Of a stretch of DNA of 64,000 bases, positions 1,646-22,698 are shown piece after piece (within the stretch, counting starts at the first letter, position 1; each line of letters opens with the position of its first letter). The translations under genes and the position numbers were made by a program. Where the stretch lies: the NCBI GenBank assembly GCA_011033025.1, contig WFMF01000086.1, positions 62,001 through 126,000 of the forward strand. Direction: 5' to 3'. Source of the stretch: Beroe forskalii. Lineage: Eukaryota > Ctenophora > Nuda > Beroida > Beroidae. The notes under the pieces were generated by a model. The model searched no databases. It was not told the DNA's origin and saw only the letters and a list, made by a program, of their open reading frames with translations.

Positions 1646-4600
1646 GTTTTGGTGTTCCTGGACTCGCACATAGAAGCAACAGAGGGATGGTTGGAGGCAC
1701 TAATTCACAGGATCTACCTAAACAAGCTGATAGTCCCGGCCCCTGCTATCGATAACATCAACTATGAAACGTACGATGTTTACTTTTCTCCCCTTTTCTT
1801 ACAGTGATGTTCTAGGTTGAAAATCGCTGTGTTTGACTCCATCTGATTATGGAATGATTTACTATTCTTATGTTAAAATGTATCTTCATTAGGTTGGAAT
1901 ACACCAAGACTGATGGTAGTAAAGGCGGTTTCAACTGGGCACTGGTTTTTAAATGGGTTCCTATGAATGAAACAGAGAGAACCAAATACTATAATTGGGA
2001 TCCCTTCGAGTAAGTGTCTTACTTTTATGTACTTTAAGATTACTTAAAATGGTACTCACAAGGATTTGTGGTCGAGGAAGATTCAAAACTTCACCAAGTA
2101 AATTTCGTTGCCCATACTAATGTCTCATTGCTGCGGGGACTATCCTTTGAATTTATTTTCCTTGCCAAAAAGATTTAGAAATAATGATGTGATTGTCTCA
2201 AATTCAAATTTCGATTCTCCTACGATGGCTGGTGGTCTCTTTGCCATACATCGCGATACATTTCATGACTACGGTACCTACGATAATGAGATGAGCATTT
2301 GGGGAGGAGAAAATCTCGAGATGAGTTTCCGGGTGAGTTAATTCTACAGTTTTCCTTTATTTTTGAAAACCCGCCATGAAATCACAGTATCACACACAAT
2401 CAGGATATTTGAGCTCAACATTGGAAAATTCAGCACATATACCCGCAGTTATATTAAGGATTCATTTTGTTAGCTCACATCGGCGCCATGGCTTAGTTGG
2501 TTAAAGCGCCTGTCTAGTAAACAGGAGATCCCGAGTTCGAATCTCGGTGGTGCCTTATTTTACCCAATGTTCTAAAAATCCGATTCCATCTAAATTCTAA
2601 GAAAAAATTACGCCCACTTCCTATTTTTCAGATGTGGATGTGCGGTGCTAAGCTGGAAATCGTGCCCTGTTCCCGAGTGGGGCACATCTTCCGCCTCAAG
2701 AACCCCGTTTCCTTTCCCGGGGGCACGAGTAACACCGTCAGTCGGAATAACAAACGACTTGCGGAGGTGAGTTTCAGGGCGAATATATAGCGTAAGAGTT
2801 GGGGTGTTATTTCGAAAATGGTCCAGTGAGGAGGTAGCCGAGTGTAATAATTCGGTTGAAAAGCTTTTTTAGTGATTCACGTTTTCAAGGAGATACTGAA
2901 ACGTGAAAATTTTAGCGACGTAAGCTTCCTGAAAACTGCAATTTTGAATGATGGCCTATTTTCAGTTCTAAAATTGGTTAGATTGAAAATGAGACCGAGT
3001 TTCTAGTCTTTTTAGATAATTTCCAGAATTATTAAAATATTACGCTTGAAATTACTTATTTAAAAATTCTCAACTCTTGTTACAATTGACCGGCCAATTC
3101 CCCATGAAGTTGATTCATTACATATATTAGCATAAATTTATCATAAATAATAACAATACCAAATGTTATAATTTTAGATTAAACCCTTTTGTCTCTTCGC
3201 TAGGAAGATTTATTCTGGAACGATTTATTCTAGACATATTGCTTATAGTTTCATAGCGAAAGTCAAAAGGACACACTTTATTCACGGGTGTATTACACAC
3301 TTGGAAGCCTAACCATGAATTGAGTCTCACGGAATAACGGTCACTGAGAAAAGAGAATGGGGGGAAGGGTTGACCCACGGTAAATAAGCGGTTAAACGTT
3401 ATCAACTCACCGTGTTGAGATAAGATTATGAGGTCATCTTAACAGCACATTTATTGTGTATGTATATGTTAGAGGAGAGGGAGGCGACGAGAAAAGATGG
3501 AGGTTGAAAGGAAAATGTGTGATAGTTCCAAGTATTGGATGCGTTCGCATCCAGAAGTGTTTAGTTTATAGTTATTGATGTGTAATAAAGAACAAAGTGA
3601 GCGCGTGATTCCTATGTTCCTTTACAATAAAGATTTGGTGTCTTGAACTGGTGTTATAAGGGCGGTGGAGTGAATCTATGGTTTCTGTGTTCACTTATTC
3701 GGGGACAATATTTGTCATTTTGGTTTATGACATTTCATTCAAATTTTAATTCCTCCAAATAATCTTACTACAGGAAACAAGGATTCCAGAAATTTAAGAA
3801 TGCACAGAAAATTTGGCAGCACCAAATTACGCATTTTCCATGGGCTTATCGCTTAGTCTTATTTTAAATCAATTTTCACGATAGGAACACCAAATTAAGA
3901 ATTTTGCGGGCCTGGGTGGCCAATTTTCTGCTAATTTTCTCCCATCACATTTGGAAATTTTCAGGCGTGGATGGACGAGTACAAGGAGATGTTCTACTGG
4001 TACAGTCCTGGAATCGAGAAGAAGGATTCTGGAGATATTTCCGGTAATTTGGAAGTTTTTGGAGATCTGCCAGAAATTATTTTAATATGGATTTAACGCT
4101 TGTCAGGAATGATACACAAGCATTTCTGTCCTAATTTCTACTTATCGACTGTAGCAAAGTTTCAAAGTTTACCATTTGTACCAAATTCTGTAGAAAATTA
4201 CTTTGAAATTGATTTAAAGTGAAACACTTCAATTATCATCAGAACAAAGAATAAATTTCAAAACTTCATACTTCAATAAATGAATATTTCATTATTTCAT
4301 ATCGCCATGACATCACTTCTTTACTTCAAAGGAAGAATCCTGGCATTTCTTTAATAGTCCCAAAGAAACCCCCATTGTCCCAGAAAACCATGCTGCTCAC
4401 ATCCAGCGTTGTTACGGAACCAGACAGTGGTATTTCAAGTTGACAACCCCAATGACCCTGGTGCCAATCTCCTCCTTGTCCTTATGTGACACCACAATAA
4501 CCCTGGTGTCAATCTCTTTTTGTGACACCCCCAATAACCTTGGTGTCAATGTCCACTTTCTCCTTTTGTGACACCCACAATGACCCTGGTGTCAACCAGT

Positions 4601-7600
4601 GCTTGGCAGACCCCGACCACGGGTTGACAAGGTTTACAAGGTTTAAAAATAAATATTAACCTCGGGTGTGTGACACCTTGATAGCTTTACCATAATAACA
4701 GAGGGTGATGAGTTACAGGTATCGCAAAGACGAAGAAGACTCGGAAATGAATGAAGATTACGCTGCTGAGGCGGTGTTTTTAAACTTAATTTTCAGGACA
4801 CGCGTTGATGGGAATTGTATTCTTGATTCTTATTGGCTGCTTGCCAAACCACGTGACTACTCTGAACTGTGCAGCGTTTTGAATGGTTGGGAAAATTAGC
4901 CATGGTATCATCATCATTTTTCATTGAAAAATGAAAAATTGAAGCTAATGCACAAATATAATGAAGCTAATGTACAATGGAAATTTAAAATACATCTGTT
5001 TTGAAGATCAGTTTATTTACATCCATTGATACTCAAATGTCTTCGTTCATTAGCTTTCAAGTTTTATAATGATGATTGACCAAAGGCCTTTCAATGGCCA
5101 GTTACCTCCCCCCCCCCCTAATGTAGCAATATTTTATATTCTATTCACTCAGACGAAAGCATCAGAAGAATCTAATCTCATGAAATTGAGGCAGACATGA
5201 CGTAAACTTAAATTGTACCTATTTTGTTTAAAATTTAAATCTCTGGCCTCTATTACGTCAAAGAGCTGATTCAGAGTGTAACTGAGCTGTTTTGTAATCC
5301 AATGGTCGTCAGCGCTGTGTTACTACAATATAACAGCGCGAGTCACGTGATTTTAATGTCACGTGACAGTTGACTTGTCTGACGTCTGTGGTTACAAGTC
5401 GTCTTTGTGTCTGTGAGACATGTCTTGTCTTGAGGATACTAATTCTACGGACACCTGGTAACTCCGGAAAACTTCATTCAAATATTAAAAAGATTTAAAT
5501 CTTTGAAAGAAAAGCTTCATTCAAAGATTTAACTTTTTTTGAAAGATTTACAGATTAAATCTAAGGATGAAATATTTTCAGGTTTACTGCGGAATGAAGC
5601 GAGGCAGTAACCATTCCCTAAATAATATTTGATAAACTTTTTCAGGAAGAAATGGTGCTGAAGAATTTGATGAATATTGCAAAATATATCAATTAACTCC
5701 CCCCCCCCAACACATCTCTGCCCTAAATCATTCAAAGTATCATTACATCATACATGCCCCCCCTCAACCATTTCAATTAAAATAATTACACAAAATTGTG
5801 TAATATCTATATTTTAATTTGCAGAGCCGCGCTTGCCAGTTTTTTATTTACAATTCTGAAATAAAATGTAAGATGGCAAGTGGCATGGCAACCCCCCCTC
5901 TTAGATCTTAATATTGAAATTTAACAAATATCATTGAAATTTCAAAAAAGATCAATTGTATTTCCATTGAAAAAAGTCTGTTATATTCACTACGTTTTTA
6001 TGTGAATAAAAACGTTCTCTCGAGACAAACGTCGTGTGGCGTCATTGCAATGTCGTCCCATAATTTCGAATATTTCTCTTCCCCAAAGGTCGTCTTGCGC
6101 TCCGTGAGCGGTTGAAGTGTAAGAGTTTCAAGTGGTACCTGGACACTGTGTACCCTGATCTGTACGTTCCCTCCCTTAACTACCTCGCTTTAGGATCGGT
6201 TAGTGACAGCGAAGTTTTTGAAGCCCTTATAGAAATTTTATTGAAAGTTAATCGCGCGCACTGTTAAAAGCACGTATTTATCAATCCCTTCATCGATCGA
6301 TGCATGTACACATGCAACGATCGATAAAGGGATTGATAAAGACGTACTTTTTTCATTGCGCGCAACTTACTTTAATCGAATTTCTGTGGATTTGTCGAAG
6401 CTCATGCGTTTTTAGATCGATTGATCCATGTGGGCACATTTTGGGTATATGTAGTGGTGCCACTCGGGTTTTTGATCAATCAATCACATGAAATTGGTTG
6501 GCGATTGATTTTTTTCATTGAATTTCCTTTCTCTTAGATTTTCTCTTAGATTTTTACCACAATTTACCCCCTAACTTTTTATCCGTAGTTGTAAAAAGCC
6601 TCTCATCTTTCAGATATCCAATCCCTCGACAAACTTATGCCTGGATTCCTTCGGCAAGGCAGACCACTACCAAACAGTGAAAGCTGGCCTGTATTTCTGT
6701 CACCACCAGGGTGGGAACCAGGTATCTTGATCCCTCATTTTAAGCTGTGTCAATTGGTCATTAAACGAATGTGAGCAGATTGCTCGATTCCATATGTACG
6801 CGCGTAACTTTCCATATGAATTCGATCGGAAGTAATTCAATTTGTGGGTGTTATCAAGCCCTTCAAGCGACGAAATTTCAGACTGAGGAAGCAGGAATTT
6901 TGTTCATTCTCATTTTATTTTTATTTTTTATCGCAGAATACAAGCTATCCTAGCAATGACAGGCTAGGTCGTGAATACATGACAACTTTCTAGCCTTCCA
7001 AAAATACGACAAAGAGTCTTTGTCGTATTTTATTCTGAATGTCTTACGCTGACACTTACAGATTACAGACTATTACACAGATTGCAGACTATTCTAACCA
7101 CTCTATCATTACTGTGGTCACGAAAGTTAAATATTATAAAGTTTAGAAGCTTATTTACGTGTTTATAATACTATAAACGCGGTAACCCTTGTCACCGAAG
7201 GAATTGTCGTAAGCAATCAACCATTAACTACCCTTTATTACACCTCACCGCTACAGCTCCGAACTCATCAAAGTGAGATGTATGAATTATAACAATCGAA
7301 AAGGGCGCGCGCGAGTGTGTGTAAGCCTTTGTTAACTAACCCCTGAACAGTATGCTGGATGACTACCGTCAGGGCTAAGTGTCCGCATCAAATCCCTGAT
7401 TGCACACACCCAGGGGCTTTGTTTCTAAGCGCACTCACTCCAGGTGACACGTTGAACTGCTGGACTCCGGCAAAGTGACACGTTGGGTTACACGTAGATT
7501 TGGAGCAAAGACATAGTTGAGGAAAATGACAGTAGACATGCACAGTATTACCGGAATCCAGATTATTTAAGCCAAAATTTATCAAAAATCCGAGCAAATC

Positions 7601-10600
7601 TCCGATTTGTTATGTAGTCAGGAAAGCAGAATCAATTCCAAATTCGGTTGAATTAATATTGACCGAAACTTCGCTGAAAATATTAAAATAATCCTAGCAA
7701 TTATTTTCTACAAGCTGTGCACAAAACGTAATCTTCGTGGTTTGATAATTGTTGTTGTGGCCGAATTGTTATTAACAGCTAACCTTTCTAACCCTGAGAT
7801 GTGCACGGTCCAAACTACAGCATTTCTGTAATGCAGTTTGTAGACTGAATTAAATGTGTTAAAGTGAAATAGTCCTGACCTGAATTGGTGTCAATTGAAT
7901 TGGTGTCAAGAAAGACTGGTGTCAGGACGACTATGCGTTTGAATGCGCAATACGTATAAACTGACTAACTGCACCGTTGAAATTGAAAGAATATTTCCTG
8001 CCCTGAAGAATTATAATTAACTAGCAGAACCCATGGCCTCCGGCCATCGTTCACAATTTTTTCGCTTCAGCAATTGGTACAGTATAATGCAGTACTGTAG
8101 TTCTTATCAGTGATGAGGTCATCTTTTAATCGGGTGTGCCTACTCCTCTATGTGATGTCTATATGTCAGGTGGTGTCAAACGTCACTGGTACTCTGGTAT
8201 GAACATTCCGATCATCGGCAATCGGCATGCTTGATGGGGTACTGAGTGGTGTCAGAAAAATCTGTGGCTATATATAAGCCACCGGACAGACAGAAATCAT
8301 AAACTGGACAGACAGATATATATTCATTTATTTATTTATTTATTTATATATTTATATATGAGGAAGAATTATAAGTAGTAAGATTAGAGATTAATCAGGT
8401 GAACTCTGAAATCGTTCCCAGTGTCAGGCGTAACCAGATTTTTGAAAAGAAGGCGGCGAGTTACATTAATAAAGCCTATTGATTTTTTATTTTGCTTGGC
8501 TCAAACTTCAAAGCTCTCATATTAACACTTTAACAAGATTCTCACGTCTGTTCAAAAAGGGGAGGCAGCCGCCTGTGTCGCCTTCCCCTGGCTACACCCT
8601 TTCCCAGTGAAACTGGTACGATGATGGCCACATTTCAGGGCCATTCTCCGTACTTCCACGTAAGTTTTACATTTTACACGCTTCTCTGAAGCATTTGAAA
8701 CACCCTCCCCCAATTCACGTGTGACTAGTCTGTGATTTCCTCTGCGCGCCTTAATTCTGCCTTCCCTTTTCGCATGAAAATTGGGGGCTATTCTTTCCAT
8801 GCAGAGGGCTATTATGTGCTTGGATGGGTTTTGTCTGTTTGCGTGTAAGGGGTGTCGAACGTCGGATCTAAATGTACATCGTTCCGTGATGATACGTTTT
8901 ATAGTTGCCTGCTCTCATCTACACACATTCACAATTTTTTCTTCATTGCTTCTCTCGGCCTCCCTTCAATCTCCCAACGCTATATTTTTTTCTAATATTT
9001 CATGGGGTTAAGTTAAGTGTGTTGTTATAAACTGTCCATAATCATACCAAAGGTCAATTATCTTCTGACTTCGTAATTACTATAACCTTTAGGAAAAAGT
9101 TATATTATAACTGAAATTAAAAGCTTAAACTTAAAGAGATTGATATTCATATTCTAAGCTCCAGTCCGTTAGTGAATTGACAAGTTACTCATGGTTAATT
9201 AACTGCCATGTTATTGTCACGGGCAAAAAGTTTATAGTTATAGGTGTTTAGTCCAATGATTGATGTGGCCTTTAATCAACCATGATCAGCCTTATTAATT
9301 ATGTAGCTGCCCCTCAAGCAACGCAGTCAGCAATTGGCAACTTCTGTTAATTGTTCTCATATGACAATTTCTACATTAGTAATTTTAAGCTTCATGATAT
9401 AGATATTAATAATAAATACTGCGCCTAGGTGTTGTTGATAAATAGGACCCACTATTTGATGATAATTAATAAACTATTGGAGCTACTTTCAGTTCGGCTT
9501 TAGTTCATATTAATTGAAGGAAGGTATGATATAGGCGTAGGTCAAATAGTTAGCCTTTCATTCTTATCATTTTCATGTTGTTTTCATTAAACTGAGACGA
9601 TATTTATATCATCGAGGTTCCATTCATTCATTCGAATACTCAGACCTTCACATTGAATTTGTCCTCTTTTTGATACTTCATTCTAAATCCAGTAAAATTT
9701 CCCTAGTTCTTCCACTCCTAGACTGTGCTTGCTGTTACTTTTGGCATTTTGCCATTCCCTCCCTTCAGATTTCGTTGTAGAGCTTAGATGTTAATAAAAT
9801 ATTTTTTTAAAATATCGTAAACAATAATCCTTTACCTCCCTATCTAGATCATGATGAAGTACTTCATCGCCGTTCTTCTGATCGGCGTGGTTGCTGCCAA
9901 TGGTCTCCTCAAGCTCTCTGAAAAGGACAAGGCCCAGATCAGGGGACTGAAAGCTCTCCTCACCAACTTGGACGGAGTTTTCCCCACCTGTAACCTGGTC
10001 CTCTTCAGTGAAATGGTCGACTACGATACAGCTGATGCCAACTGCAAGAGCTTCGACCTTGGAACGGGCGGTGATGTCAAAGGTAACTTGGCTACCGTGA
10101 ACACAGACGAGAAGAACACCGATTTGAAGATGCTGCTCGCCATGGCCTACCCCACCTCCAGTGGCAAATGGGCTCCGGATGAGTGGGTCTGGGTGGGTCT
10201 CAGAAAGATGCTGAACAACGACGGCAGCAAGAAAGGCAGAGAATATCACGCTGAGGATTGGGCCTGGGCTGATGGATCCAAACCCCTGGACTACTCAGGA
10301 TGGCTCAGAGGACAACCCGACCAGAAGCCCACCAAGCAAGACGGAGTGAAGTACCTCCAGAATCAGATGAGGATCAACCACGCTGGAAAATGGGACGATA
10401 CCTTCGCCTTCAAGGAACATCCCTATGCCTGTGACTACCAAGGAAAATACATTCTCTCAGGAAACCTCAAATCTTGGGGACACGCCAAGGAAGCCTGTGA
10501 GGCTGCCGGACTTATCATGGCTAAAGTAAGGAACGAAGGGGAAGTCGAGGAGATCAAGTCGGCTGCCAAGTACTTCCTTGGGGACGCTCATGAGAAGACC

Positions 10601-13600
10601 TGGGAGGCCACCAACTGGATCTGGCTGGGAGGAAACGACGAGAAAGAGGAAGGTACCTGGGTCTGGAATGACGGAGAGCCCATTGAGTGGTTCGACACCA
10701 TGCCGTGGAGAGCTCCCAACCCTGACAACTCCGACAGGATCCAGGGCAAGACCACACAGAACTACCTGTCCATCTCCAAGTGGGGAGAATTCGACGACTC
10801 CTTCGACCACAAGAGACGAGCAAGGCCCTTCGCTTGCCAGTGCCCCGACACGTAAACTTCTGACTGATTATTTCATGGATAAGAAATCATTTGAAGGACT
10901 AAAAATTATCTGATTATTATTTCTTTATCTCTGATATTTTCGTGTTAGTGACATATCATGTAGAAACCTCATATGTAAATGATAGAGTTGTAATAAGTTT
11001 TAAATCTGAAAATGAATCTAAATGATAGAGTTGTAATGAGTTTTAAATCTGAAAATGAATTTAACGAAATGTATAGTGGTGTAAAGTGTAATTTAGTGTT
11101 ATTGTTTAGTGTTAACTTGATAGCATTATAAACTTCAGTTAATTTGTGCTTCGTCTTATTTCAAAAAATTTTCCTATTTCTGCGTCAACGCATAGCCCCT
11201 GAACAGTTTTGTGAGGTGTACCATTAGGGCTGAGAGTGGGGGGGCAACGCTCTTTTAGGCCCGAGGATATTAAAAATCCAAAAAGAGCCCTAGAAATAAA
11301 TAATCTGGAAAGAGCCTTAGAAAGTGGGGCCTAAAAGAGCCTAAAAGAGCATTGGCTCCCCCCCCCCCCTAAGTGTCCGCATCAAATCCCTGATGGCACA
11401 CACACAGGGCCATTGTACTCTCCTTCAGGAATTGTTTCTAAGCGTACGCCGTAATCACTTCAAGGTGACACGTTGAACCACGGTATTTGGAATAAGTGAC
11501 ACGTTGAGTTAAACCCAGATTCGGAGTATATACATATTTGAGAAAAAATGACTGTAGCCTTGCACAGTACTACCGGAATCCAGATCAGCTAGATCACTCA
11601 AACCAAAACTTATCAAAAATCCAAAGTAAATTCTCGTTTTGTAGTCAGGAAAACAAAATCAATTCCTAATTCGCTTAGAGCTAAAATGCATTGCTCAAAA
11701 TAATCCTTGCAATCATTTTCTACATCTACATGATTTGGGGCATTACAGGCTGCGCTTTGCACACGAATTCTTATGTTTTTATAGTTTGTTGGAAAAACTT
11801 TGAAAATGTTTCTAAAAAACTTTACTAATTGCCGTGGTTAAAAACTTGGGTGGCCTCCTGAAGTCAAATCGCTGCATATTTCCCTATAAATATGTTGAAA
11901 TATTGTCTTAAATCGATGTCAATTGAACTTGTGTCAAGAACGACTGGTGTCAGGACGACTTAACATCTGAATGCGCAATACAGATAGACGGACTTACTGT
12001 ACCTTAGAGAATTTAAAAAGAATATTTTCTGTCATGAAGAAATGGACCTTGGAGGCATGAAGATTGAAGGGTGAACTCTGAAATTATTGCCAGTGTAACT
12101 GGTTCGATTATGGCCACATTTTAGGGCCATTCTCTGAAACTTCCGTAGTTCCACGTACTTTCTACACGCTTCCAAAAGCATTTGAAACACCCTCCCCAAA
12201 TTCACGTGTGTCTAAGCCTGTGATTTCCTCTCCGCGTCTTAGTTCTGCCTTTCCTTTTCGCATGAAAATCTGAGGGCTGTTCTTTCTATGCGGAGGGCTA
12301 TTATGGGCTAGGATGGGTTTTGTCTCTTAGCGTGTAAGGAAGGCAGAATCTAAATGTACATCGTTCCGTGTTGAAACTTATTATATTTACTTGCCCCCAT
12401 CTACACACACACTCAAAATTTATTCTTTATTGCCTCCCTTCAACCTCCCCACGTTATAATTTATATTTCATGGGGTTAATTATGTGTGTCGTTATAACCT
12501 GTCCATAATCATGTCAAAGGTTAATTATCTTCTTGACTTCGTGATTAATATGTCCGTAAGGAAAAAGTTATATTATTATAACTGAAATTAAAAGCTTAAA
12601 CTTGAAGAGATTGATATTTATGTTCTAAGCTCCAGTCCGTTAACGCATTGACAATTAATGGATAATTGACTGCCATGTTATTGTCACGGGCAAAAAGTTC
12701 ATAGTCATAAGTGTTTAGTCCAATGATTGATGTGGCCTTAAACCAACCATCACCATTAATAATGTAGCTACCCCTCAAGCAACGCAGTCAGCAATTGACA
12801 ACTTTTGTTACTTGTTTCCTCAAGTACAACTTCTATACCAATAATTTTAAGCTTCATGATATACCTTATCGGACATTATTGTCACGGACATAACTTTCAC
12901 GCTGAGCATCTCTGCGTGAATATTGATTTCCGTGAAAATTATTTCTGCGTGATACTAATGTCCGTGATTTTCAAGTCTAGTATTTCCTCTCAACATCTCT
13001 TGGGTACAGTCGCAAATTTTCTGACTTCATCTCTTTAAACGCACAAATAATGAAATTTTTCGTTAAATTATACTTCGTTTCCATGCTTATACTTAGTAAC
13101 TGCAATATGGAAATTGATCAGTATCATTATCAAAAACATTGAAAAATCTCCAATTCAAGTATACCGATTGCGGAAGAAAATGGGAAAAACGAGCGGATAA
13201 TTTCAATTTTTATGAAAATTTGAAGTGCCTGCCACTTCAATCAAGCGTGAATATTTATATCCGTGAAGTTTTAGGTTCGTGAAACTAAAGTCCGTGATAA
13301 TTATAATCACCACCTTTATCTTCCCGAAATTGAAAGTTTTTCTTCGGGTTTTGTGATGAAATTTTTGGACCATTTAACCCCATGAGCATATCGAAAAAAT
13401 TCATAAAAAAACAAAACTACAAGGCCTACTCGCTTTGTTCACAAAATTTACCCGATATGATTGGATTGGATATTTCATTTGTGCTTGGATTGAGACCTTG
13501 AAGACATTGACGAATCGCAATATAAAGAATTAGAATATTATGGCGGTATACAAAATCGCAATTAAATACCTAATTAGAATATAATAAGGACACACAAGGG

Positions 13601-16600
13601 TCTGGAGGCAGCATCCCCCAGAAGCCAGACGTCCCGAGCTCATAAAATCGTCGCACAAATATGATTTGAGACTCCTTTTTGAATTATGGAATGACAAGCA
13701 GTGGTCTGGGGCGACAGCCCCCTGAAGAAACCAGACGTCACAGATGCGTATAAAATTATCGAGCTAATATATGATTTTGAGAGTCATTACTGTTTATTTG
13801 TGAAGTCGAAGACATGAACGAATCACAATATAATGGATTATAACAATAGAATGCAGCCCCCAGAAACCAGATGTCCTCAGTAACTAAAATTGTCACCCTA
13901 ATATATGATTTCGTGACTCATTTCTGTTTGTCTCAGATAGAAAATTTCAATGCACTGTACTCAAATTTTGGAGTTAGCTTTCAAATATGTGGAGCCAGTT
14001 TTTTTGCTCCACTGCGATGTCTAAAATATTTCAATTAATTTTCACTAAGATTGGAAGAGATGATTGCTAATCTTCGGTGTTCGTGCTCCTGTAGCTTGTC
14101 TATTAAAACAAGCTTCTCTTCTCAAAACTTGCTTCTCTTTGAGCTGAGTATCAATCAATGAATGACCAAAAGAGCAAAAGTGATGATAATCTCCGGATAT
14201 CTTCCGTTAGTTATTTTCTAAAAATAAGAAATAAGACTTTATTAATTAAATAGTTCTGATTCAAACTTAGTTGCGCCTGAAAAATAATAAATGGAGCTCA
14301 AAAGCGAAGATGATCCTCGGATTGGGATCATTTTTGCATGAGAAACTTCAAAGCTTATCTTCGCTTCAATCTGAGCCTTATCTTCCCTATGGGATTGAGT
14401 TTGGACCAAGTATGAAGGGGTGTCATTCTTATTAAACTGAGACGATATTTATATCATAAGGTTTCATTCAGTCATTCGAATACTCAGACCTTTAGATTGC
14501 ATTTCGTCCTCTATTTGATACTGCATTCTAAATCCAATATAATCTTTAAGTACTCCTAGACTTTGCTAGCTGTTTCATTTGGCATTTGGCCATTCCCTCC
14601 CTTCAGAAGGCGTTCAAGAGCTTAGATTTTAACAAAATATTTGTTTTTTGTCAATATTGTAAACAATAATCCTTTACCTCCCTATCTAGATCATGATGAA
14701 GTACATCATCGCCGTTCTTCTGATCGGCGTGGTTGCTGCCAATGGTGGTCTCCTCAAGCTCGATGATGATAAAAGGGCTCAGATCAAGGGACTGAAAGAT
14801 CTCATCACCAACTTGGATGGGATTTACCCCACCTGTAACCTAGTCCTTTTCAGTGAAATGGTCGACTACGATACAGCTGATGCCAACTGCAAGAGCTTCG
14901 ACCTTGGAACTGGCGGAGATGTCAAAGGTAACTTGGCTACCGTGAACACAGACGATAAGAACACCGATCTAAAGATGTTGCTCTCCATGGCCTACCCCAC
15001 CTCCAGTGGCAAATGGGCTCCGGATGAGTGGGTCTGGGTGGGTCTCAGAAAGGTGCTGAACAACGATGGCAAAATGAAACGCAAGGAATTAAAGGTATAT
15101 CAACCTGACGATTGGGCCTGGGCTGATGGATCCAAACCCCTGTACTACTCATCATGGCTCAGAGGACAACCTGACCAGGCACCCACCAAGGAGGACGGAG
15201 TGAAGTACCTCCAGAATCAGATGAGGATCAACCACGGTGGAAAATGGGACGATACCTTCGCTTTCAAGGAACATCCCTATGCCTGTGACTACCAAGGAAA
15301 ATACATTCTCTCAGGAAACCTCAAATCTTGGGGAAAAGCCAAGGAAGCATGTGAGACTGCTGGACTTATGTTGGCTAAAGTAAGGAACAACGCCGAAGTG
15401 GAGGAGATCAAGCAGGCTGCCAAGTACTTCCTTGGCGACCGTGATGAGAAGACCTGGGAGGCCACCAACTGGATCTGGCTGGGAGGAAACGACGAGAAAG
15501 AGGAAGGTACCTGGGTCTGGAATGACGGAGAACCCATTGAGTGGTTCGACACCATGCCGTGGAGAGATCCCAACCCTGACAACTCCATGAAGATCATGGG
15601 CAAGGACACACAGAACTACCTGTCCATCTCCAAGTGGGGAGAGTTCGACGACTCCTTCGACCACAAGAGACGAGCCAGGCCCTTCGCTTGCCAGTGCCCC
15701 AACACGTAAACTTCTGACTGATTATTTCATGGATTAGAAATCGTTTGAAGGACTTAAAATTATCTCATTATTATTTCTTTATCTCTGATATTTTTGTGTT
15801 AGTAACATATGTAGAAACATATGTTAATGATAGAGGTGTAATAAGTTTTAAATCTGAAAATGAAGTTAATGTATAGTGGTGTGAAGTGTAATTTAGTGTT
15901 ATTGTTAACTTAATATCATTAAACTTCAGTTAATTTGTGGTTTTACTTGTAACTTTCCTATCATATGAATCCACTAAAGACATCAATCCACTTAAAAAGT
16001 TATTAAAAGTGAAAAAAATAAGTAAAATGATTACCGTTCAAACCCAATAAATATATGAGTAGCTAAAAATTTCCCAAATTTACAAATCAAATCCATGAAT
16101 ATTCTGGGGTTTTGAAAGCTCTGCAGTTATTACTGGTAGGTCAAAGCGTCATTTCTCCAACATTTTGGAGTCCTTTGGGTTGGGTATTATCATAGGCCAC
16201 TGATTTTCACGTCTCCCCAACTATAGTCAAAGAGAACTCAAAATTAAAGAACCTCCTTAGTCCTTATCTTTCCTTCCCCTGACCTGATCTTTTCTCTATA
16301 GTTTTATCCTGATCCTCCCTCTTGTCCTTTCCTTGACTTTCCCATAGGACCCCAATAACCAAAATCTTGTCACCTCTTCCTATCAACGTTCGAGTTGGCT
16401 GTTGAACGCTGATTTGTCAATCTGAGAATCCGTGATCATTTCTCTGGGAGACAATTCTGGGAACCTCATATGGAACTATATGACGTTCTCACTTCTCATC
16501 GGTGTTTATGATAGTACAATTAGACACTTGCCTAATCGGGTCAATATTGGTTTAGACCTTAGCCCTTCTAACCCGCAGCCTGAAGGGCCTGAAGGGCTGC

Positions 16601-19600
16601 GAGTTAGAAGGATTTCTCCCATCCCTAGCGTGCAACACTCAGAAATTTGGAGGATTGTGCTGCAGTAAAGTGTTGACGACGGAGGATAGAGTTAATAACT
16701 CCTACTAGCTGTGGGTCCAAACCGGGCCGTATCTCAACATGGATCTGATGGGCGCCTGACGCATGTCTTTGTATTTAATAGATGGATATGATTATTTTTA
16801 ATGACTTAATGCCCGAGAGTATACTTTTAGTTTTAGGTGAATAGTGAAAGATACCCTGCAGATTGACTTCCAGTTCCTTGATTAGGAAGGACCTCAACTG
16901 ATAGCTTCTCTCCAACCCTTCATATGCACGAATGTTGCTTATATTAAACCAAATGAAACTCCAGCATGAGGTACATTAGAAGCCTTACCACTTCTTGGGA
17001 TGTTTAGATATACATGGTTCACATTTTGTACCTGAATTATAAGACATGAAAATATATAATAATACTACTCTACAGAAAATATCAACAACGCAACAAATAT
17101 GACATATTAAAAGAAATTTAATAAAATTAATAAAAGAAAGCGTCTTATATCGGATTAAATTACAAAATTCATACTAAAAGAATATCTACAAACTATTTAC
17201 ACGGCTATGTACAAAATATTCACAAATTATTTTACAAAATCCAATACTAAAAGAAAATATTTAAATTTTGCTCCTTTATAAATAAAATAAGCATATTACT
17301 GATAACAAAATTTGTCAAATAAACATTTGTATCTTAATTGTCGACCACAATTTAAATACGCACGGATGATTCCTATTAATAAACTTCTTGATAAAACTTA
17401 CTAATACACACTTTTCAAAATTTTGCTTACTCAATTTGTTAACCAATAATTTAACATACTAGCAAAACCCACGACCTCCGGTCGGGTGCTCGATTGGGTT
17501 GCGAGTGATGTTAGACCGGACAGACTGGGTCCTGCTAGAAATCAGTACCTAAGACTTTATTTCAAATTATTCATAACAAACTGTGAATTTGCTGATGAGA
17601 CAGTGCTTTACTATCCATATACTCTAGTTAACCGGTGTCAAGGGTATAATTTCACGTCTTCTGATACTTTTGGGAGTGGTGTCAGACCGGACAGACGCCA
17701 GACAAACATAATTACATAGATAAATATATATATATGATGAAGAATTATATATAGTAAGATAATACTGCCGTAGCATAGGAAATATTTCTTTGTGGTTTGG
17801 AAATGACCCTTCCACAGGAAATATTTCTTTGTGGTTTGGAAATGACCCTTCTACAGGAAATATTTCCTTGTGGTTTGGAAATGACCCTTCTACAAGAAAT
17901 ATTTCCTTGTGGTTTGGAAATGACCCTCCTACAAGAAATATTTACCTCCTACAGGAAATGTCCTACTTCCAAGTCCACTCAGCAGTTTATCATCTCGGTG
18001 GGGGTCTTGACGCATGACAGACAGCACTTCACTTTACCTGCTCCATGTCAGAGGTGTAGCCAGGAGGAAGGCGACACAGGCGTCTGCCTCCCCCTTTTTG
18101 GGCAGAGAACTTTCAACCAAGCAAAATAAAACAATAATTAATAGGTTTCAATGTAACTCGCCGCCCCTTTACAAAGATCTGGCCAAAGATAAAGTATTAT
18201 GTCTCCCATAAAAGGGGTGAACATGCCAGCCTAACATTAGCTCATACCCAATTCAGAGCAATATTTCACTCATAGAAGGGGTAAAAGTGCCAATTTATCA
18301 TCATCTTATATGCTCTTAGATTCAGAGTATTATATATCGCCTGAAGACGGCCATTTTTCGCTGTTTAGTTTTATTTGCCATGGAGGTCTCATGGGTGACC
18401 ACTGACCAAATGAAGGTTAATATCGCGTCAGTATCATGCCAGTAGCACGCCAGTAGCGCGCCAATAGCACGCCAGTAGCGCGCCAATAGCACGCCAGTAG
18501 CACGCCAGTATCGCGCCAGTATCACGCCAGTACCGCGCCAGTAGCACGCCAGTATCGCGCTAGTCGACACTTACTTAAAGCCAGGACGCCAGTAGCACTA
18601 GCACGCCAGTATCTGATCATATACTGGCGTGTTACTGGCGTCCTTGCTTTAAGTTAGTTCGACTGGCGTGATACTGGCGTGCTACTGGCGCGGTACTGGC
18701 GTGCTACTGGCGCGCTACTGGCGTGATACTGGCGTGATACCGGCGTGATACCGGCGCGAAGTAGGCCTGATACTGGCGCGATACTGGCGTGCTACTGGCG
18801 CGGTACTGGCGTGATACTGGCGCGATACTGGCCTCGACGGATCGCTCAATTTACCTTTTGTCTTTTATGGGGGAGAAAAATTGCGTTTTTCGGCCCATTA
18901 AAATGGTGAAAGTGCTCACTTTTTCATCCAAAGCAATTTCCCGAGTTTTCTAAAAGCGCCCTGTCTGTGTCCCATTATCTTACACTTACTTCGGTGTAAG
19001 TTCATACAGGTTTCATGCCTCAATAAGAGGCTCTGTTAAAATAACACAGCCTCTCGATAAATTGTGTTTCAAAGAGTGCAAAACAATTTACCTCATGGAT
19101 AAATGTCAGGAACACTTTCAATTAGTGATGAATTTCACGCTCGGTGAATCTAAGAAACTGTATGTGGTGCTTTTTACGGATAGAGAAAATTTTCAGATTT
19201 AATAATGGATGTAATTTTTGTCTGCACAGAATCCCATGAGGAAATATTTAAATTTCATGGCGAAAAAATGAATTTATTCCCATCATGCATGCACCGCATA
19301 GGTTTATGCTTCTCTCATAAATGCCTTCTGATAGCGGACCGAGATGAGCATTTTGCCATCTTAGCATTTTCTGTGCCTCTTGATCCGTTGACGATTCCTC
19401 TACAGCTCCACAAAATTTCTTCGAACTTTCATGTCGTTGATTTGGGCTCAGTATAACAGTTTTTCAAAAACCTTCTTATTCAGTTTTTCAATGTTATCAA
19501 TATCTACGTATAAAGGGCTGTTTGTAAATTTTTAATCATGAATTCATTTGTCTGCTAAATTCCATTCTTGCAACAAAAAATTTAGTATTGTACTGGAGTG

Positions 19601-22600
19601 TCTTAAATTGTGAATTGATGATTCTAATAGTAATATTAATCTTTAGAATCATGGAGCCACATAAAATCGCCTTTTGAAAATCTGCATCATATAAGAATAC
19701 TAGAATACTTCAATACTCTGATATCCATGCACGTAACGCCCGACCCTTGGGAGGGTGTTCCTGGGCCATCAAAGTGAGAAGGTATTATTTTTTTTATAAT
19801 GCTCCACGGTTTTCGGTAGTTACGAGTAACATCGGACCAAGCAAGTCGAGAAATTTGGTTGGCATCTCCAGGGCATCAAAATCACTCGGAGAGTATCATA
19901 AAAACTTTGAATATATCGCTGACACTTCCCCATATTGAGATCATGAATTTACCGATTCTCTTGGTCCTGATCGTGGGTTTGGTTGTGGCTGACGCGCTGG
20001 ATGAGGAGAAAATAAAGCAGATTCATGGCATGCAGAAACTCCTTGCCAACATGACGGGGGTCTACTCCACCTGCAACATGGTGCTGTTCAGCAAGCTCTC
20101 CGACTACACCACCGCTGATAACGCCTGCAAGAACTTCAAGGTGGGAAGCAGCCAGAACGTCAAGGGAAACCTGGCAACGGTCAACAACGATGCAAAGAAC
20201 ACGGACTTGAAGTTGCTGCTGGAGCTGGCTTATCCCAAGAGTGGAGGGAAGTGGGCGGATGATGAGTGGGTCTGGGTGGGGCTCAGGAAGGTGAAGAACA
20301 ACATGAAGAGGAAGAAGGGGAAGAACAACAACAAGTACATCCCCACAGACTGGGCGTGGGCTGACGGGTCTACACCCGCCAACTACTCACAGTGGATGAA
20401 CGGCATGCCGGACCAGAGGCCCAGTAAGATCCAAGGGACCACCTACCTGCAGAACCAGATGAGGATAAACCACAAGGGAAAGTGGGACGACACCTACATC
20501 TACAAGACCCACCCCTACGCCTGCGACTACCAAGGCAAGTACATCCTCTCGGCTGACAAGATGAGTTGGAGCAATGCCCGGACAGCCTGTGAAGATGCTG
20601 GTCTGATCCTGGCTAAAGTACGGAATGAGGCGGAAGTCGAGGAGATGGAGGCTGCTGCCCTCTACTTCCTAGGTCCTCGAGACCCTGCGCTCCGGGAGTT
20701 TGACCCTGACAACTGGATCTGGTTGGGAGGAAACGATGAAGCCGAGGAAGGTACCTGGGTATGGAATGACGGTACTCCCATTGAGTGGTTCGACACCATG
20801 CCATGGAGACCACCAAACCCTGACAACGCTGCTAGACTCAACGGAGGAAAAATCACTCAGAAGGTGCTGTCAATTTCCAAGTGGGGACAGTTCGATGACT
20901 CCTACGATGACTGGAAGAGAGCTAGGGCTTTCGCTTGCCAGTGCCCTGGGACGTAGAGGAGCCAATGGATTCGGCCATCTTGAACAATGTAGCCATATTA
21001 TGTGATCAGATGTATTGTGAAAATATACATTTAATGATTATGGAACTGTGATGAAAAATGGATTTTATTCTGATAAAATTACTTTTAAATTATTTGTCGT
21101 TGATAATATTTGTCGCTATTTGATGTGTAATACTTATTTAATTTTGTTGTAAATGTAAAATAGATTAATACAATTATTGTTGTTATGTTGTAAAGATTAT
21201 AAAACTTCCAAAATTGTTCTGCTAGTTATATATAGCATTTCATTTGGTGAAAATCTGAATTTGCCAAGCTGAGGGTTCGCGATAATAATTATCATTATGG
21301 CGGGAATAAATTTCAATCTGAAGTCCAATACTTAAAAATTGCTGTGGGAGTTTCAAATTGTAGGTCAAACGCGGAGGCATCAAAATGTGAAAAATAAGTT
21401 TTATCCACAACACTTTCCTACTCTACTTGGTACTTCAGCCCTTCACACTTGACAGCAACCCCTTGTACTTGACACCACTGCTGACTGCAACACTTGACAT
21501 TGACACCAAGTCGTATACATTATAACTTGATACCATCACAACAGTCAACATTTCATAAATTGACACCATTTCACTTGACACCATTTAACTTGACACCATT
21601 TCACTTGACACCATTTAACTTGACACCATTTCACTTGACACCATTTAACTTGACACCATTTCACTTGACACCATTTCACTTGACACCAGTCCATCACTTC
21701 ACCAATATCTCCCAGGTTTGGGTATTCAGTCCCGATTGTCGGATTCTCCAGGGGGACTTCTGTCTGGAGAGCTCCCATTCCCGGAGATCTGAGCCTGTTT
21801 TAGGGCTCTGTAAGAAGAAGAGCCAGTACCAGACCTGGAAATACGATCACGAGGTATGATACAAATGACAAGTGATTAATGAATAAATTATTTAAAAACA
21901 TGTTGTCTTCCAAGTTTCATTCTGTATAAGTATTGACCCTGATTTGCCACTAATTTAACCCTTCTCCTGTCCAGTAAAAGTTCTACCCCGTAATCAAAAT
22001 CTAATCATAATGGTGCTTTTACCAGTGTGATTCTTGCAGAATTAAGTTATTTCATGAAATTTACCTCATCTCATGCTCAAATTTCCCAAAATACAAATCT
22101 TCTCAAGTAAACACTGTTCCAAGTAAGCCGAGGACAGTATGACTATGTAACCTTTTATACCGAAATCCTCCCCCAGACGAAGTCTATCCGTAACGTGTTC
22201 TCTGGGTTGTGTCTGGACCAGGCGGGGAGGAAGTCTGATGAGTATGTGCTGGTCAGCAAGTGCACCAACACTCCGTCACAAGTCTGGGATATCGATAACT
22301 TTAGTGGGTAAGTAACTGTTAACGTCTGGGATATCGATAACTTTAGTGGGTAAGTAACTGGTAACGTCTGGGATATCGATAACTTTAGTGGGTAAGTACT
22401 GAGCCTATCATCTGGGATATCGATAACTTTAGTGGGTAAGTAACTGCTAACGTTTGGGATATCGATAACTTTAGTGGGTAAGTAACTGCTAACGTTTGGG
22501 ATATCGATAACTTAAGTGGGTAAGTAACTGCTAACGTTTGGGATATCGATAACTTTAGTGGGTAGGAAACTGGTAATGTCTGGGATATCGATAACTTAAG

Positions 22601-22698
22601 TGGATCAGTTCTGAGCCTACCGTCTGATAATTCTCTATTTCTCTGGAATTCTAACCTCAGTTTCCTCATTCCTCAGTTTCTCGCAGCAAGAGTGTTGA
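1646..22698 (+). CDS. GALNT: Polypeptide N-acetylgalactosaminyltransferase (GT27), 3' part, ten exons
   Basis: Transfers GalNAc from UDP-GalNAc to Ser/Thr, starting mucin-type O-glycans in the Golgi. Exons: <1646-1770, 1893-2009, 2179-2332, 2632-2766, 3965-4043, 6089-6198, 6614-6721, 21716-21853, 22177-22307, 22677-22698. Phases agree at every junction and give 372 codons plus TGA. Visible motifs are the metal-binding DSH (exon 1), [38 protein letters not shown] and FPGGT. The ricin-type domain follows, with CLDS, HQGGNQVW, CLES, YQTW, CLDQ and SQVW marking three repeats. It resembles the GALNT1/13 group most. The 5' exons (TM anchor, stem, first half of the catalytic domain) lie left of the window. 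The last exon (residues FSQQEC, then TGA) is the least certain, because the donor before it lies in a tandem repeat. The intron after exon 7 is about 15 kb and contains three lectin genes. Confidence 0.92.
2482..2555 (+). tRNA. tRNA-Thr (anticodon AGT)
   Basis: The sequence folds into a full cloverleaf of 74 nt including the discriminator base. Acceptor arms GGCGCCA and TGGTGCC pair with one G-U. The D-loop contains AGTTGGTTAAA. The anticodon stem CCTGT/ACAGG encloses CTAGTAA, giving anticodon AGT. The T-arm is CCGAG-TTCGAAT-CTCGG, a canonical B box. There is no intron, and a short T-rich stretch (TTATTTT) follows as a Pol III stop. It lies inside a GalNAc-transferase intron on the same strand. 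It looks functional. Confidence 0.95.
2767..3964. other. Intron with a decayed short repeat
   Basis: No exon is seen. At about 3795-3950 the text contains ACCAAATTAAGAATTTTGCG and neighbouring pieces that resemble, in decayed form, the interior of the MITE at 42044-42234 (CACCAAATTAAGCA and TGCTTAATTTGGTG). This is probably an old member of that family. Confidence 0.4.
4044..6088. other. Intron with short repeats and poly-C tracts
   Basis: No exon is recognised. Contents include a TGACACC/GGTGTCA repeat cluster (4430-4680, listed separately), two poly-C tracts (near 5107 and 5698), a pair of GTCACGTGA palindromes at 5341-5368 (E-box-like CACGTG) and a small inverted repeat built on AAAGATTTAAATCTTT near 5490. 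The open frame at 4705-4899 has no family resemblance. Confidence 0.5.
4430..4680. repeat. Imperfect tandem repeat of TGACACC..CCTGGTGTCA
   Basis: About four imperfect units of 50-60 bp, each containing TGACAC(C), AATAACCCTGG or a variant, and GGTGTCAA. The unit ends are inverted copies of each other. The same TGACACC/GGTGTCA heptamer returns at about 7880-7920, 11920-11950 and 21430-21690 within this gene. Confidence 0.6.
6240..6365. repeat. Inverted repeat centred on CGATCG
   Basis: Left text ATTTATCAATCCCTTCATCG and right text CGATAAAGGGATTGATAAAG are near-complementary around a short centre with ATGCATGTACACATGCA. Outer flanks CGCGCACT and TTGCGCGCA extend the symmetry. The foldback lies in the GalNAc-transferase intron 6199-6613, 42 bp after the donor. 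Confidence 0.65.
7001..7031. repeat. Perfect 14-bp hairpin
   Basis: AAAATACGACAAAG, a three-base loop AGT, then its exact reverse complement CTTTGTCGTATTTT. A small stable palindrome near the start of the 15-kb intron; no gene is attached to it. Confidence 0.7.
8021..8400 (+). repeat. Dispersed repeat, copy 1
   Basis: Begins ACTAGCAGAACCCATGGCCT and contains GGTGTCA, TATATAAGCC, CCGGACAGACAG, (TTTA)n and GAAGAATTATA..AGTAAGAT. The same order of blocks recurs at 17459-17770 in the same orientation, in both places followed closely by a copy of the CAGGGGCGTAGCC MITE. Confidence 0.6.
8424..8605 (-). mobile_element. Decayed hAT-like MITE (CAGGGGCGTAGCC family)
   Basis: The interior and ends match, in reverse, the well-preserved copy at 34713-34875: GGCGTAACCAG, AAGGCGGCGAGTTACATT, TTGCTTGGCTCAAA, AAAGCTCTCATA, GGAGGCAGCCGCC and CCTGGCTACACCC. 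The ends have drifted and no target duplication is evident. Confidence 0.65.
9851..10855 (+). CDS. Secreted double C-type lectin-like protein 1
   Basis: Intronless 334-aa frame inside the 15-kb GalNAc-transferase intron, same strand. Residues 1-17 form a signal peptide ([14 protein letters not shown] core). Two C-type-lectin-like domains follow. CTLD1 (about 45-200) has Cys47, Cys65 and Cys194, WVWVGL at 112-117, the galactose-type QPD at 155-157 and WDD at 181-183. CTLD2 (about 201-334) has Cys216, WIWLGG at 256-261, PNPD at 289-292, EFDD at 313-316 and C-terminal Cys329/Cys331. QPD plus WND-like motifs suggest Ca-dependent sugar binding by CTLD1; CTLD2 has an unusual PNPD. No membrane anchor is seen, so it is probably secreted. 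The start was chosen for its signal peptide and conservation with the neighbouring copy. An acceptor-like CTATCTAG lies 3 nt before the ATG. Ligand and role are unknown. Confidence 0.93.
   Translation: MMKYFIAVLLIGVVAANGLLKLSEKDKAQIRGLKALLTNLDGVFPTCNLVLFSEMVDYDTADANCKSFDLGTGGDVKGNLATVNTDEKNTDLKMLLAMAYPTSSGKWAPDEWVWVGLRKMLNNDGSKKGREYHAEDWAWADGSKPLDYSGWLRGQPDQKPTKQDGVKYLQNQMRINHAGKWDDTFAFKEHPYACDYQGKYILSGNLKSWGHAKEACEAAGLIMAKVRNEGEVEEIKSAAKYFLGDAHEKTWEATNWIWLGGNDEKEEGTWVWNDGEPIEWFDTMPWRAPNPDNSDRIQGKTTQNYLSISKWGEFDDSFDHKRRARPFACQCPDT
11230..11372. mobile_element. Short inverted-repeat insertion with an empty site in the sister copy
   Basis: Ends are inverted: GGGGGGGCAACGCTCTTTTA on the left and AAAGAGCATTGGCTCCCCCC on the right, and GGGCC/GGCCC-TAAAAGAGCC lies inside. 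Unit A at 7370 reads AGGGCTAAGTGTCC with no insert, so it serves as an empty site. Flanking CTGAG/CTAAG could be a 5-bp target duplication. No ORF. Confidence 0.65.
12864..13320. mobile_element. Decayed MITE with TACCTTATCGGACATT end
   Basis: The left end reads TACCTTATCGGACATTATTG followed by TCACGGACAT and TTTCACGC. The right side carries the partial reverse complement (TTCGTGAAACTAAAGTCCGTGATAATTATAAT). The insertion is absent from sister unit A at about 9400. A solo end of the same family is at 54610-54700. Right boundary uncertain. Confidence 0.55.
13590..13930. repeat. Three imperfect ~140-bp tandem units
   Basis: Each unit contains TCTGG-GGCAGC-CCCCAGAA, CCAGACGTC, then AAAAT(C/T)GTC and ATATGATTT(G/C)(A/G)GA. 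The third unit is shorter. Present only in unit B of the lectin duplication. No coding potential seen. Confidence 0.6.
14693..15709 (+). CDS. Secreted double C-type lectin-like protein 2
   Basis: Intronless 338-aa frame, near-identical in architecture to the gene at 9851 and located at the same relative position in the second unit of a tandem duplication. Signal peptide about 1-17, then two C-type-lectin-like domains. CTLD1 keeps QPD (RGQPDQ) and KWDD. CTLD2 keeps WIWLGG, PNPDN and EFDD. Differences from copy 1 cluster in the N-terminal linker ([14 protein letters not shown]), the loop after VGLRK ([19 protein letters not shown] versus a shorter loop) and near the end of CTLD2 (SMKIMGKD), which are surface or ligand-side loops by family knowledge. 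The promoter-proximal 270 bp and the CTATCTAG-ATC-ATG start context are conserved with copy 1. Probably secreted; ligand unknown. Confidence 0.93.
   Translation: MMKYIIAVLLIGVVAANGGLLKLDDDKRAQIKGLKDLITNLDGIYPTCNLVLFSEMVDYDTADANCKSFDLGTGGDVKGNLATVNTDDKNTDLKMLLSMAYPTSSGKWAPDEWVWVGLRKVLNNDGKMKRKELKVYQPDDWAWADGSKPLYYSSWLRGQPDQAPTKEDGVKYLQNQMRINHGGKWDDTFAFKEHPYACDYQGKYILSGNLKSWGKAKEACETAGLMLAKVRNNAEVEEIKQAAKYFLGDRDEKTWEATNWIWLGGNDEKEEGTWVWNDGEPIEWFDTMPWRDPNPDNSMKIMGKDTQNYLSISKWGEFDDSFDHKRRARPFACQCPNT
15961..17458. other. Intron stretch, mostly featureless
   Basis: AT-rich, no ORF with family resemblance. At 16515-16622 there is an inverted-repeat relic: AGACACTTGCCTAATCGGGT followed by CCCTTCTAACCCGCAGCC and its near complement GGGCTGCGAGTTAGAAGG. 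The left end matches the TIR of the MITE at 47438-47570. Confidence 0.5.
17459..17770 (+). repeat. Dispersed repeat, copy 2
   Basis: Matches the repeat at 8021-8400: ACTAGCAAAACCCACGACCT at the start, GTGTCAGACCGGACAGAC in the middle, and GATGAAGAATTATATATAGT at the end. Same orientation as copy 1. Confidence 0.6.
17779..17960 (+). repeat. 39-bp minisatellite
   Basis: Between four and five units of GGAAATATTTC(T/C)TTGTGG followed by TTTGGAAATGACCCTTC(C/T)ACA. Because 39 is divisible by three it stays open in several frames, which creates spurious ORFs. Confidence 0.85.
18020..18180 (+). mobile_element. Decayed hAT-like MITE (CAGGGGCGTAGCC family)
   Basis: Contains GAGGTGTAGCCAGGAGGAAG, CCCCCTTTTGGGCAGA, AACCAAGCAAAATAAA, TTTCAATGTAACTCGCCGCC and TCTGGCC in the same order as the copy at 34713-34875. 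Ends have drifted. Confidence 0.65.
18420..18838. repeat. Foldback of two opposed decanucleotide arrays
   Basis: The left half (18420-18620) is an array of about 10-bp units CGCCAGTA(G/T)C(A/G). The right half (18625-18838) is the same unit reversed, (T/C)ACTGGCG(T/C)G. They meet at a near-perfect palindrome (CGCCAGTAT-CTGATCAT-ATACTGGCG), flanked by ACTTAAAGC on the left (in ACTTACTTAAAGCCAGGACG) and GCTTTAAGT on the right. The structure could form a hairpin with ~200-bp arms. Confidence 0.85.
18839..19942. other. Stretch upstream of lectin gene 3
   Basis: No family-level coding signal. Contains ordinary AT-rich DNA with an unassigned 83-codon open frame at 19205-19456. The frame that runs into the lectin from 19859 lacks a signal peptide at its N-terminus and is treated as 5'UTR or intron. 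An acceptor-like CCCCATATTGAG lies 3 nt before the lectin ATG. Confidence 0.4.
19943..20956 (+). CDS. Secreted double C-type lectin-like protein 3 (diverged paralogue)
   Basis: Intronless 337-aa paralogue of the two upstream lectin genes, same strand, same intron. I chose the ATG at 19943 instead of the upstream in-frame ATG at 19859, because it starts a proper signal peptide ([17 protein letters not shown]) and keeps the shared AG-ATC-ATG context. CTLD1 has WVWVGLRK and KWDD, but the QPD of the paralogues reads MPD (NGMPDQ). CTLD2 keeps WIWLGG, PNPDN and QFDD. Two loops are longer: a lysine/asparagine-rich loop after VGLRK, and [12 protein letters not shown] before NWIWLGG. The codon mix is more GC-rich than in copies 1 and 2. 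The QPD-to-MPD change may alter or abolish sugar binding in CTLD1. Ligand unknown. Confidence 0.92.
   Translation: MNLPILLVLIVGLVVADALDEEKIKQIHGMQKLLANMTGVYSTCNMVLFSKLSDYTTADNACKNFKVGSSQNVKGNLATVNNDAKNTDLKLLLELAYPKSGGKWADDEWVWVGLRKVKNNMKRKKGKNNNKYIPTDWAWADGSTPANYSQWMNGMPDQRPSKIQGTTYLQNQMRINHKGKWDDTYIYKTHPYACDYQGKYILSADKMSWSNARTACEDAGLILAKVRNEAEVEEMEAAALYFLGPRDPALREFDPDNWIWLGGNDEAEEGTWVWNDGTPIEWFDTMPWRPPNPDNAARLNGGKITQKVLSISKWGQFDDSYDDWKRARAFACQCPGT
21425..21700. repeat. 15-bp minisatellite TTGACACCATTTCAC/AAC
   Basis: A core array at about 21545-21690 of TTGACACCATTTCAC alternating with TTGACACCATTTAAC (30-bp higher-order unit), preceded by looser TTGACA(C/G)C units from 21425. It ends about 25 bp before the acceptor of the GalNAc-transferase exon at 21716. 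Confidence 0.85.
22281..22612 (+). repeat. 42-bp minisatellite that copies an exon end and its splice donor
   Basis: Eight units of about 42 bp. The first is the real exon end encoding VWDIDNFSG and its donor GG|GTAAGT. Following units repeat GGGATATCGATAACTTTAGT plus GGGTAAGTAACTG. Six or more units preserve the donor; the last two are mutated (GGGTAGG, GGATCAG). Confidence 0.92.

Follow-up and report, generated by a model that had tools for sequence, protein, structure and literature searches.

We analysed 64,000 nucleotides of the genome of the ctenophore Beroe forskalii (assembly GCA_011033025.1, contig WFMF01000086.1, positions 62,001 to 126,000, forward strand), here called the window, in whose coordinates all positions are given. 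Towards its left end lies part of a gene for a polypeptide N-acetylgalactosamine (GalNAc)-transferase, or GALNT, and one large intron of this gene holds three lectin-like genes, A, B and C, each predicted to encode two C-type lectin-like domains (CTLDs). We refer to the GALNT gene as the host and to the lectin-like genes as its guests.

The host gene and its large intron

Seven plus-strand exons (1646-1770, 1893-2009, 2179-2332, 2632-2766, 3965-4043, 6089-6198 and 6614-6721), recognized by their GT/AG borders, their phases and alignment with GALNTs, encode part of the catalytic domain and the beginning of a ricin-type lectin domain. Three more on the same strand (21716-21853, 22177-22307 and 22677-22698) complete the ricin-type domain and carry the stop codon. 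When joined, the ten exons between 1646 and 22698 form one open frame of 372 residues plus a stop, with GT/AG at all nine introns; their borders were set by hand from homology and frame, rather than by a gene finder.

The joined protein aligned with GALNT1 over residues 1-363 of its 372 (E 7.6e-99), and with a transferase 9 that we take to be Drosophila PGANT9 (E 8.7e-89). In Pfam, Glyco_transf_7C scored above its cut-off and Glycos_transf_2 below, while Ricin_B_lectin reached 79.2 bits against a cut-off of 29, as expected for a C-terminal ricin-type beta-trefoil domain. The sequences DSH, WGGEN and CSRVGH are present and align with GALNT1; we take them to be the catalytic DxH, WGGEN and CSxxGH motifs of polypeptide GalNAc-transferases (family GT27). 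Nearly all of the host part present is collinear with GALNT1 and other polypeptide GalNAc-transferases (PDB 1xhb, 6e4r, 2ffu). Unlike these, the host has no N-terminal part that we could find in the window, as far as we looked for upstream exons; its first residue there corresponds to residue 204 of the 559-residue GALNT1 chain 8v9q. A tblastn search over the window gave no second set of host exons, apart from the final part of exon 22177-22307, which recurs in an array. We conclude that the host is, as judged from its predicted product, a GALNT gene that the window covers from the middle of the catalytic domain through the stop codon.

The intron of interest (6722..21715, plus strand) is 14,994 bp long and in phase 0, with donor CAG/GTATCT and acceptor CAG/GTT. 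The join of 6721 to 21716 falls within the ricin-type domain and aligns without a gap to GGNQ/VFSYT of GALNT1. Because unspliced reading beyond 6721 would give GGNQVS and then a stop, and because the open frame preceding 21716 lacks a methionine, neither half resembles the end or the start of a gene. The first 276 residues alone gave no Ricin_B_lectin match at E up to 0.01, a 53-residue piece including exon 8 scored 27.2 bits, under the cut-off, and the best tblastn match of the host protein lying entirely inside the intron had an E of 4.4. The initial annotation of this DNA had assigned the exons before 6722 and after 21715 to a single GalNAc-transferase, joined as in the family. The continuous frame, the matching phase and the gap-free passage of the GALNT1 alignment across GGNQ/V bear this out, as far as sequence evidence goes.

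Several smaller features accompany the host. A tRNA-Thr gene (2482-2555, anticodon AGT, Rfam tRNA 69.8 bits) lies on the host strand in the host intron 2333-2631 and is thus a fourth nested gene. Within the large intron, 18414-18834 is foldback-like, with two arms of about 150 bp composed of 11-bp repeats in opposite orientation, and a 15-bp array (21560-21688) sits just 5' of the acceptor, with inverted relatives at 7850-7924 near the intron start. A 42-bp tandem array (22282-22603) consists of six copies of AGTGGGTAAGT, counting the exon's own, each with the 3' end of exon 22177-22307 and the splice donor of that exon; use of a later donor in this array would lead to an in-frame TAA and the loss of the last six residues only.

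Three lectin-like genes within the intron

Genes A (9851..10855, 333 residues, ATG at 9851 or 9854), B (14693..15709, 337 residues, ATG at 14693 or 14696) and C (19943..20956, 337 residues) are intact open reading frames (ORFs) on the plus strand, and the coding sequences of all three lie entirely within the one host intron, so that the earlier claim of three same-strand genes in a 15-kb intron stands. Lectin_C scored above its Pfam cut-off in each of the three, in two stretches each in A and B and in one in C, the strongest being the second domain (CTLD2) in every protein. With the three proteins as tblastn queries, only these three copies were recovered from the window, the remaining matches having E values of 0.46 or worse. 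Three related ORFs of more than 330 codons are not a product of chance.

In searches of the PDB, the first domain (CTLD1) of A came nearest to CEL-IV, a sea-cucumber lectin (E 3.5e-8), and CTLD2 of C nearest to DC-SIGN (E 7.2e-5). CTLD1 of C gave no stretch in Pfam and none among 46 PDB sequences up to E 0.1, in a table that shows for C the best-scoring stretch per sequence only; we read it as a CTLD-like half because it resembles A and B. A profile built from the six domains of A, B and C matched many C-type lectins, including the GalNAc-specific CEL-I (E 2.3e-5; 0.014 for A alone). Each protein has six cysteines, three per half, rather than the canonical four per CTLD; these four are typical but not required, and the inner pair is often lost. 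CEL-IV and CEL-I (PDB 3als and 1wmy; 157 and 140 residues) are of the size of one CTLD, whereas A, B and C have two, with different motif letters. AlphaFold2 models were too poor to be used for the fold, with a mean predicted local distance difference test score of 31.4 for the whole of A (three-sequence alignment) and 41.9 for its CTLD1 (six-domain alignment).

These results agree with the earlier description of double-CTLD proteins, with CTLD1 of C included through its likeness to A and B. That description also had the proteins secreted and the genes intronless. All three N-termini are hydrophobic in the manner of signal peptides, judged by inspection rather than with a signal-peptide predictor, and we regard secretion as probable. 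The coding part is unbroken in all three, which upholds the single-exon claim for the coding sequence; for the transcript it is weakened by acceptor-like sites before the ATGs of A and B, through which an intron in the 5' untranslated region (UTR) is possible.

The intron contains, wholly or in overlap, 25 ORFs of at least 80 residues, a limit below which shorter exons would escape. The three lectin-like ORFs were scanned against Pfam from their ATG, ten others were scanned, and the exon-8 frame was scanned in part; the 11 outside the scan comprise ten alternative-frame ORFs overlapping the lectin-like coding sequences and one that runs antisense to exon 8. None of the ten others reached a cut-off, the strongest match (24.3 bits against 27) coming from a minisatellite ORF. 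Pattern searches for relatives of the lectin-like proteins gave 79 matches in viral contigs and 79 in prokaryote genomes, none of which was confirmed by tblastn.

Duplication in place and selection

Comparison of the intron with itself by blastn delimited two plus-strand duplication units, unit A (7375..11151), comprising gene A and parts of both its flanks, and unit B (11369..15942). The pieces 7375-7712, 7883-8010, 8601-9401 and 9586-11151 of unit A (338, 128, 801 and 1566 bp) match within 11369-15942, and unit B has 1,567 bp (12864-14430) where unit A has 184 bp (9402-9585). With gaps left out, identity in the coding sequence is 0.921. The near flanks reach 0.899 and 0.949, and the two pieces farther upstream 0.888 and 0.814, the latter with many gaps. 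Because most of the 2.8 kb shared is noncoding (about 1.8 kb), the copying took place within the intron. The self-comparison shows A and B to be a tandem duplication inside the intron that arose by recent local copying, and the earlier suggestion of an expanding set is supported by the matching flanks, which point to expansion in place.

Gene C, in this comparison, has nothing but coding sequence in common with A and B, short dispersed matches aside. Its synonymous divergence (dS) from A and B is close to saturation (1.47 and 1.55 by NG86; 1.11 and 1.12 by LWL85), and by these estimates C is much older than the split of A and B. The ratio of nonsynonymous to synonymous divergence (dN/dS) was 0.19 for both A-C and B-C by NG86 and 0.24 and 0.25 by LWL85, YN00 giving no value. 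For A-B it was 0.56 (NG86), 0.60 (LWL85) and 0.46 (YN00). Among the 60 codons changed between A and B, 19 are synonymous, compared with a mean of 20% in simulated neutral evolution (P 0.0085), and the P for a stop-free outcome under the same neutrality was 0.0265 (4000 runs, with every change placed on one lineage). The ratio of about 0.2 for C against A and B indicates purifying selection on the predicted lectin-like family; judged in this way A, B and C appear to be in use and, between the young A and B, to be less strongly constrained.

Boundaries of the guest genes

A pyrimidine-rich, acceptor-like TAG (14 of 16 pyrimidines) ends three bases 5' of the first ATG of both A (9828..9847) and B (14670-14689), on the plus strand. 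Such sites were picked by a simple rule that asks for C/TAG and no fewer than 13 pyrimidines among 16 bases; it is not a splice predictor, since only two of the ten host acceptors pass it. Of the 813 AGs in the intron only 12 pass; the 140 bases that precede the first ATG of A or B contain five of the 12, including the two that stop exactly three bases short of that ATG. The five are not independent, because A and B are copies. In C, AG/ATCATG is also present, but as GAG and outside the list of strong acceptors.

No conserved strong donor for a 5' UTR intron was found upstream of the lectin-like genes. The donor-like site at 8660 (8 of 9 positions), the only strong one in the intron that lies upstream of a lectin-like gene and outside coding sequence, was considered as a partner for the acceptor-like site at 9847 and rejected, because a 7-base gap breaks the match in unit B. 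The remaining two strong donor-like sites in the intron, at 10083 and 14928, fall within coding sequence, that of A and that of B. Near 8847 stands a weaker GTAAGG, which unit B retains as GTAAGG.

A possible, weak promoter element upstream of A, TATTTATA (9601..9608, plus strand), is kept in unit B at 14446, and AATAAA occurs 439, 336 and 348 bases past ORFs A, B and C, respectively; both features are consensus matches only.

Sugar-site motifs

In CTLD1 of A, QPD stands where CEL-IV has EPN, with WDD at the WND position, and B has identical letters. CTLD1 of C has MPD in place of QPD, followed by the same WDD, and CTLD2 has NPD with FDD in all three proteins. QPD is a signature of the galactose/GalNAc type, and CEL-IV binds galactose despite its EPN. 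We term A, B and C lectin-like rather than proven lectins. A functional tie of A and B to the host enzyme through GalNAc is conceivable from the motif; a common GalNAc theme for the two is testable but does not appear probable, because the motif is not kept in C.

Known nested genes

Genes inside introns are already known, and this lectin-like cluster within a GALNT gene adds a tidy example of that arrangement. In insects a cluster of GMC oxidoreductase paralogs lies in an intron of the flotillin-2 gene Flo-2, an arrangement conserved between four insects (PMC1891103). There, as here, the paralogs share one large host intron, and the authors weighed a functional link to the host; in Drosophila, however, the host is antiparallel to the GMC genes, whereas the present guests run in the same direction as their host. 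Several paralogs, the TipE-like genes, likewise lie in the last intron of CG18675; measurements showed their expression to be coordinated among themselves and to correlate poorly with that of the host (PMC3240667). The initial annotation had called the arrangement unusual, and with these two clusters published it is less so than claimed.

Simple nested pairs in mammals, in which a protein-coding gene likewise lies within a host intron, are mostly on opposite strands (220 of 296 in human, 193 of 248 in mouse), and the author reads the minority of same-strand nesting as avoidance of interference, such nesting being selected against (PMC8467205). In expression divergence, nested mammalian genes did not differ statistically from unnested genes (PMC8467205). 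In contrast to the mammalian majority, all three guests described here are on the host strand, but as paralogs they may represent one nesting event.

Among open-access papers searched by titles and abstract beginnings we found no report of a GALNT intron that contains C-type lectin genes, and a motif-based literature search returned no matching paper. One candidate, GALNT6/SLC4A8 (PMC6746723), was set aside as an overlapping pair rather than a case of nested lectins.

Interpretation

The intron within the ricin-type domain of the GALNT gene very probably houses a small family of double-CTLD genes, probably secreted in their products, across which the host is spliced. The guests would be transcribed from their own promoters and end at their own poly(A) signals, while the host pre-mRNA would be spliced across the full 15 kb. 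Their products may act as secreted glycan-binding proteins, in defence or in the matrix. The nesting would then be one of tenancy rather than of shared function, and, because same-strand nesting invites transcriptional interference, host and guests are probably active in different cells or at different times.

Four observations weigh against this reading or parts of it. The acceptor-like sites upstream of A and B allow a 5' UTR intron, trans-splicing, host splicing or chance as possible explanations. The TATTTATA copies at A and B are two of 16 TATA-like matches in the intron, with none close upstream of C. For A and B the AATAAA falls outside the sequence matched between the units, and its conservation is therefore not shown. 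Finally, a dN/dS near 0.5 between A and B also fits relaxed constraint in one copy.

Should the nesting have been kept because the GALNT, which adds GalNAc to Ser/Thr, and CTLDs of the QPD type, which would bind GalNAc/galactose glycans on those same secreted proteins, work on one glycan under shared regulation, one would look to QPD and WDD in CTLD1 of A and B, to the GalNAc-specific CEL-I among the matches of the six-domain profile, and to an ORF of a galactosyltransferase family 32 kb downstream. We think such a functional module improbable: the motif is not kept within the family, which has MPD in C and NPD with FDD in every CTLD2, and the motif alone is undecisive, CEL-IV having EPN as a galactose binder and binding by the present proteins being putative. 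The poor correlation of the TipE cluster with its host (PMC3240667) also argues against it. Were the enzyme and the lectin-like proteins found to be co-expressed and to have a common glycan, the locus would exemplify a functional link of host to guest, a kind of connection that is usually unclear.

It is very unlikely that the lectin-like ORFs instead serve the GALNT gene as alternative exons at its 3' end, reached by splicing of the donor at 6721 to 9848, 14690 or 19940. Such splicing would be compatible with exon 7, which ends in phase 0, with the AG/ATC ATG that precedes each lectin-like ORF in the matching frame, and with the place of the A and B sites among the 12 strong acceptor-like ones. 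The fusion would, however, bury a signal-peptide-like stretch in the middle of the protein; the C site is a GAG outside the strong list; agreement of frame has a one-in-three chance, with A and B copies of one another; and a rule that only two of ten host acceptors satisfy does not predict splicing. If true, a GalNAc-transferase would in some transcripts be swapping the rest of its ricin-type domain for a double C-type-lectin module, and this glycan-initiating enzyme would have a switchable lectin head. We give still less credence to the view that the exons before 6722 and after 21715 come from two different transferase genes or a broken one. Only the 15-kb gap between the halves speaks for it; against it stand the phase match and gap-free homology at the join, the stop after GGNQVS and the methionine-less frame before 21716, and the absence from the window of competing exons, save for the 42-bp array in which the end of exon 22177-22307 recurs.

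A nested family of lectin-like genes across which the host is spliced would be a clean case of a gene family duplicated within a host intron on the host strand, and the locus could let one test how the promoters and poly(A) signals of guests spare a conserved host gene.

Other features of the window

The galactosyltransferase-family ORF (54736-55825, Pfam Galactosyl_T) contains an internal 33-bp minisatellite. It seems to continue near 55530 in another frame, in a part without a Pfam match of its own, and the gene may be frameshifted, spliced or misread. A minus-strand ORF at 58304-58702 encodes a BTB/POZ domain (E 2.9e-6) and is flanked on both sides by long ORFs of the same strand, none of them with a Pfam match over the cut-off. 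Two further minus-strand ORFs (29438-33545), about 1.6 kb apart, correspond to the N-terminal and the C-terminal portion of a DDE_Tnp_1_7 transposase, presumably of the piggyBac type.

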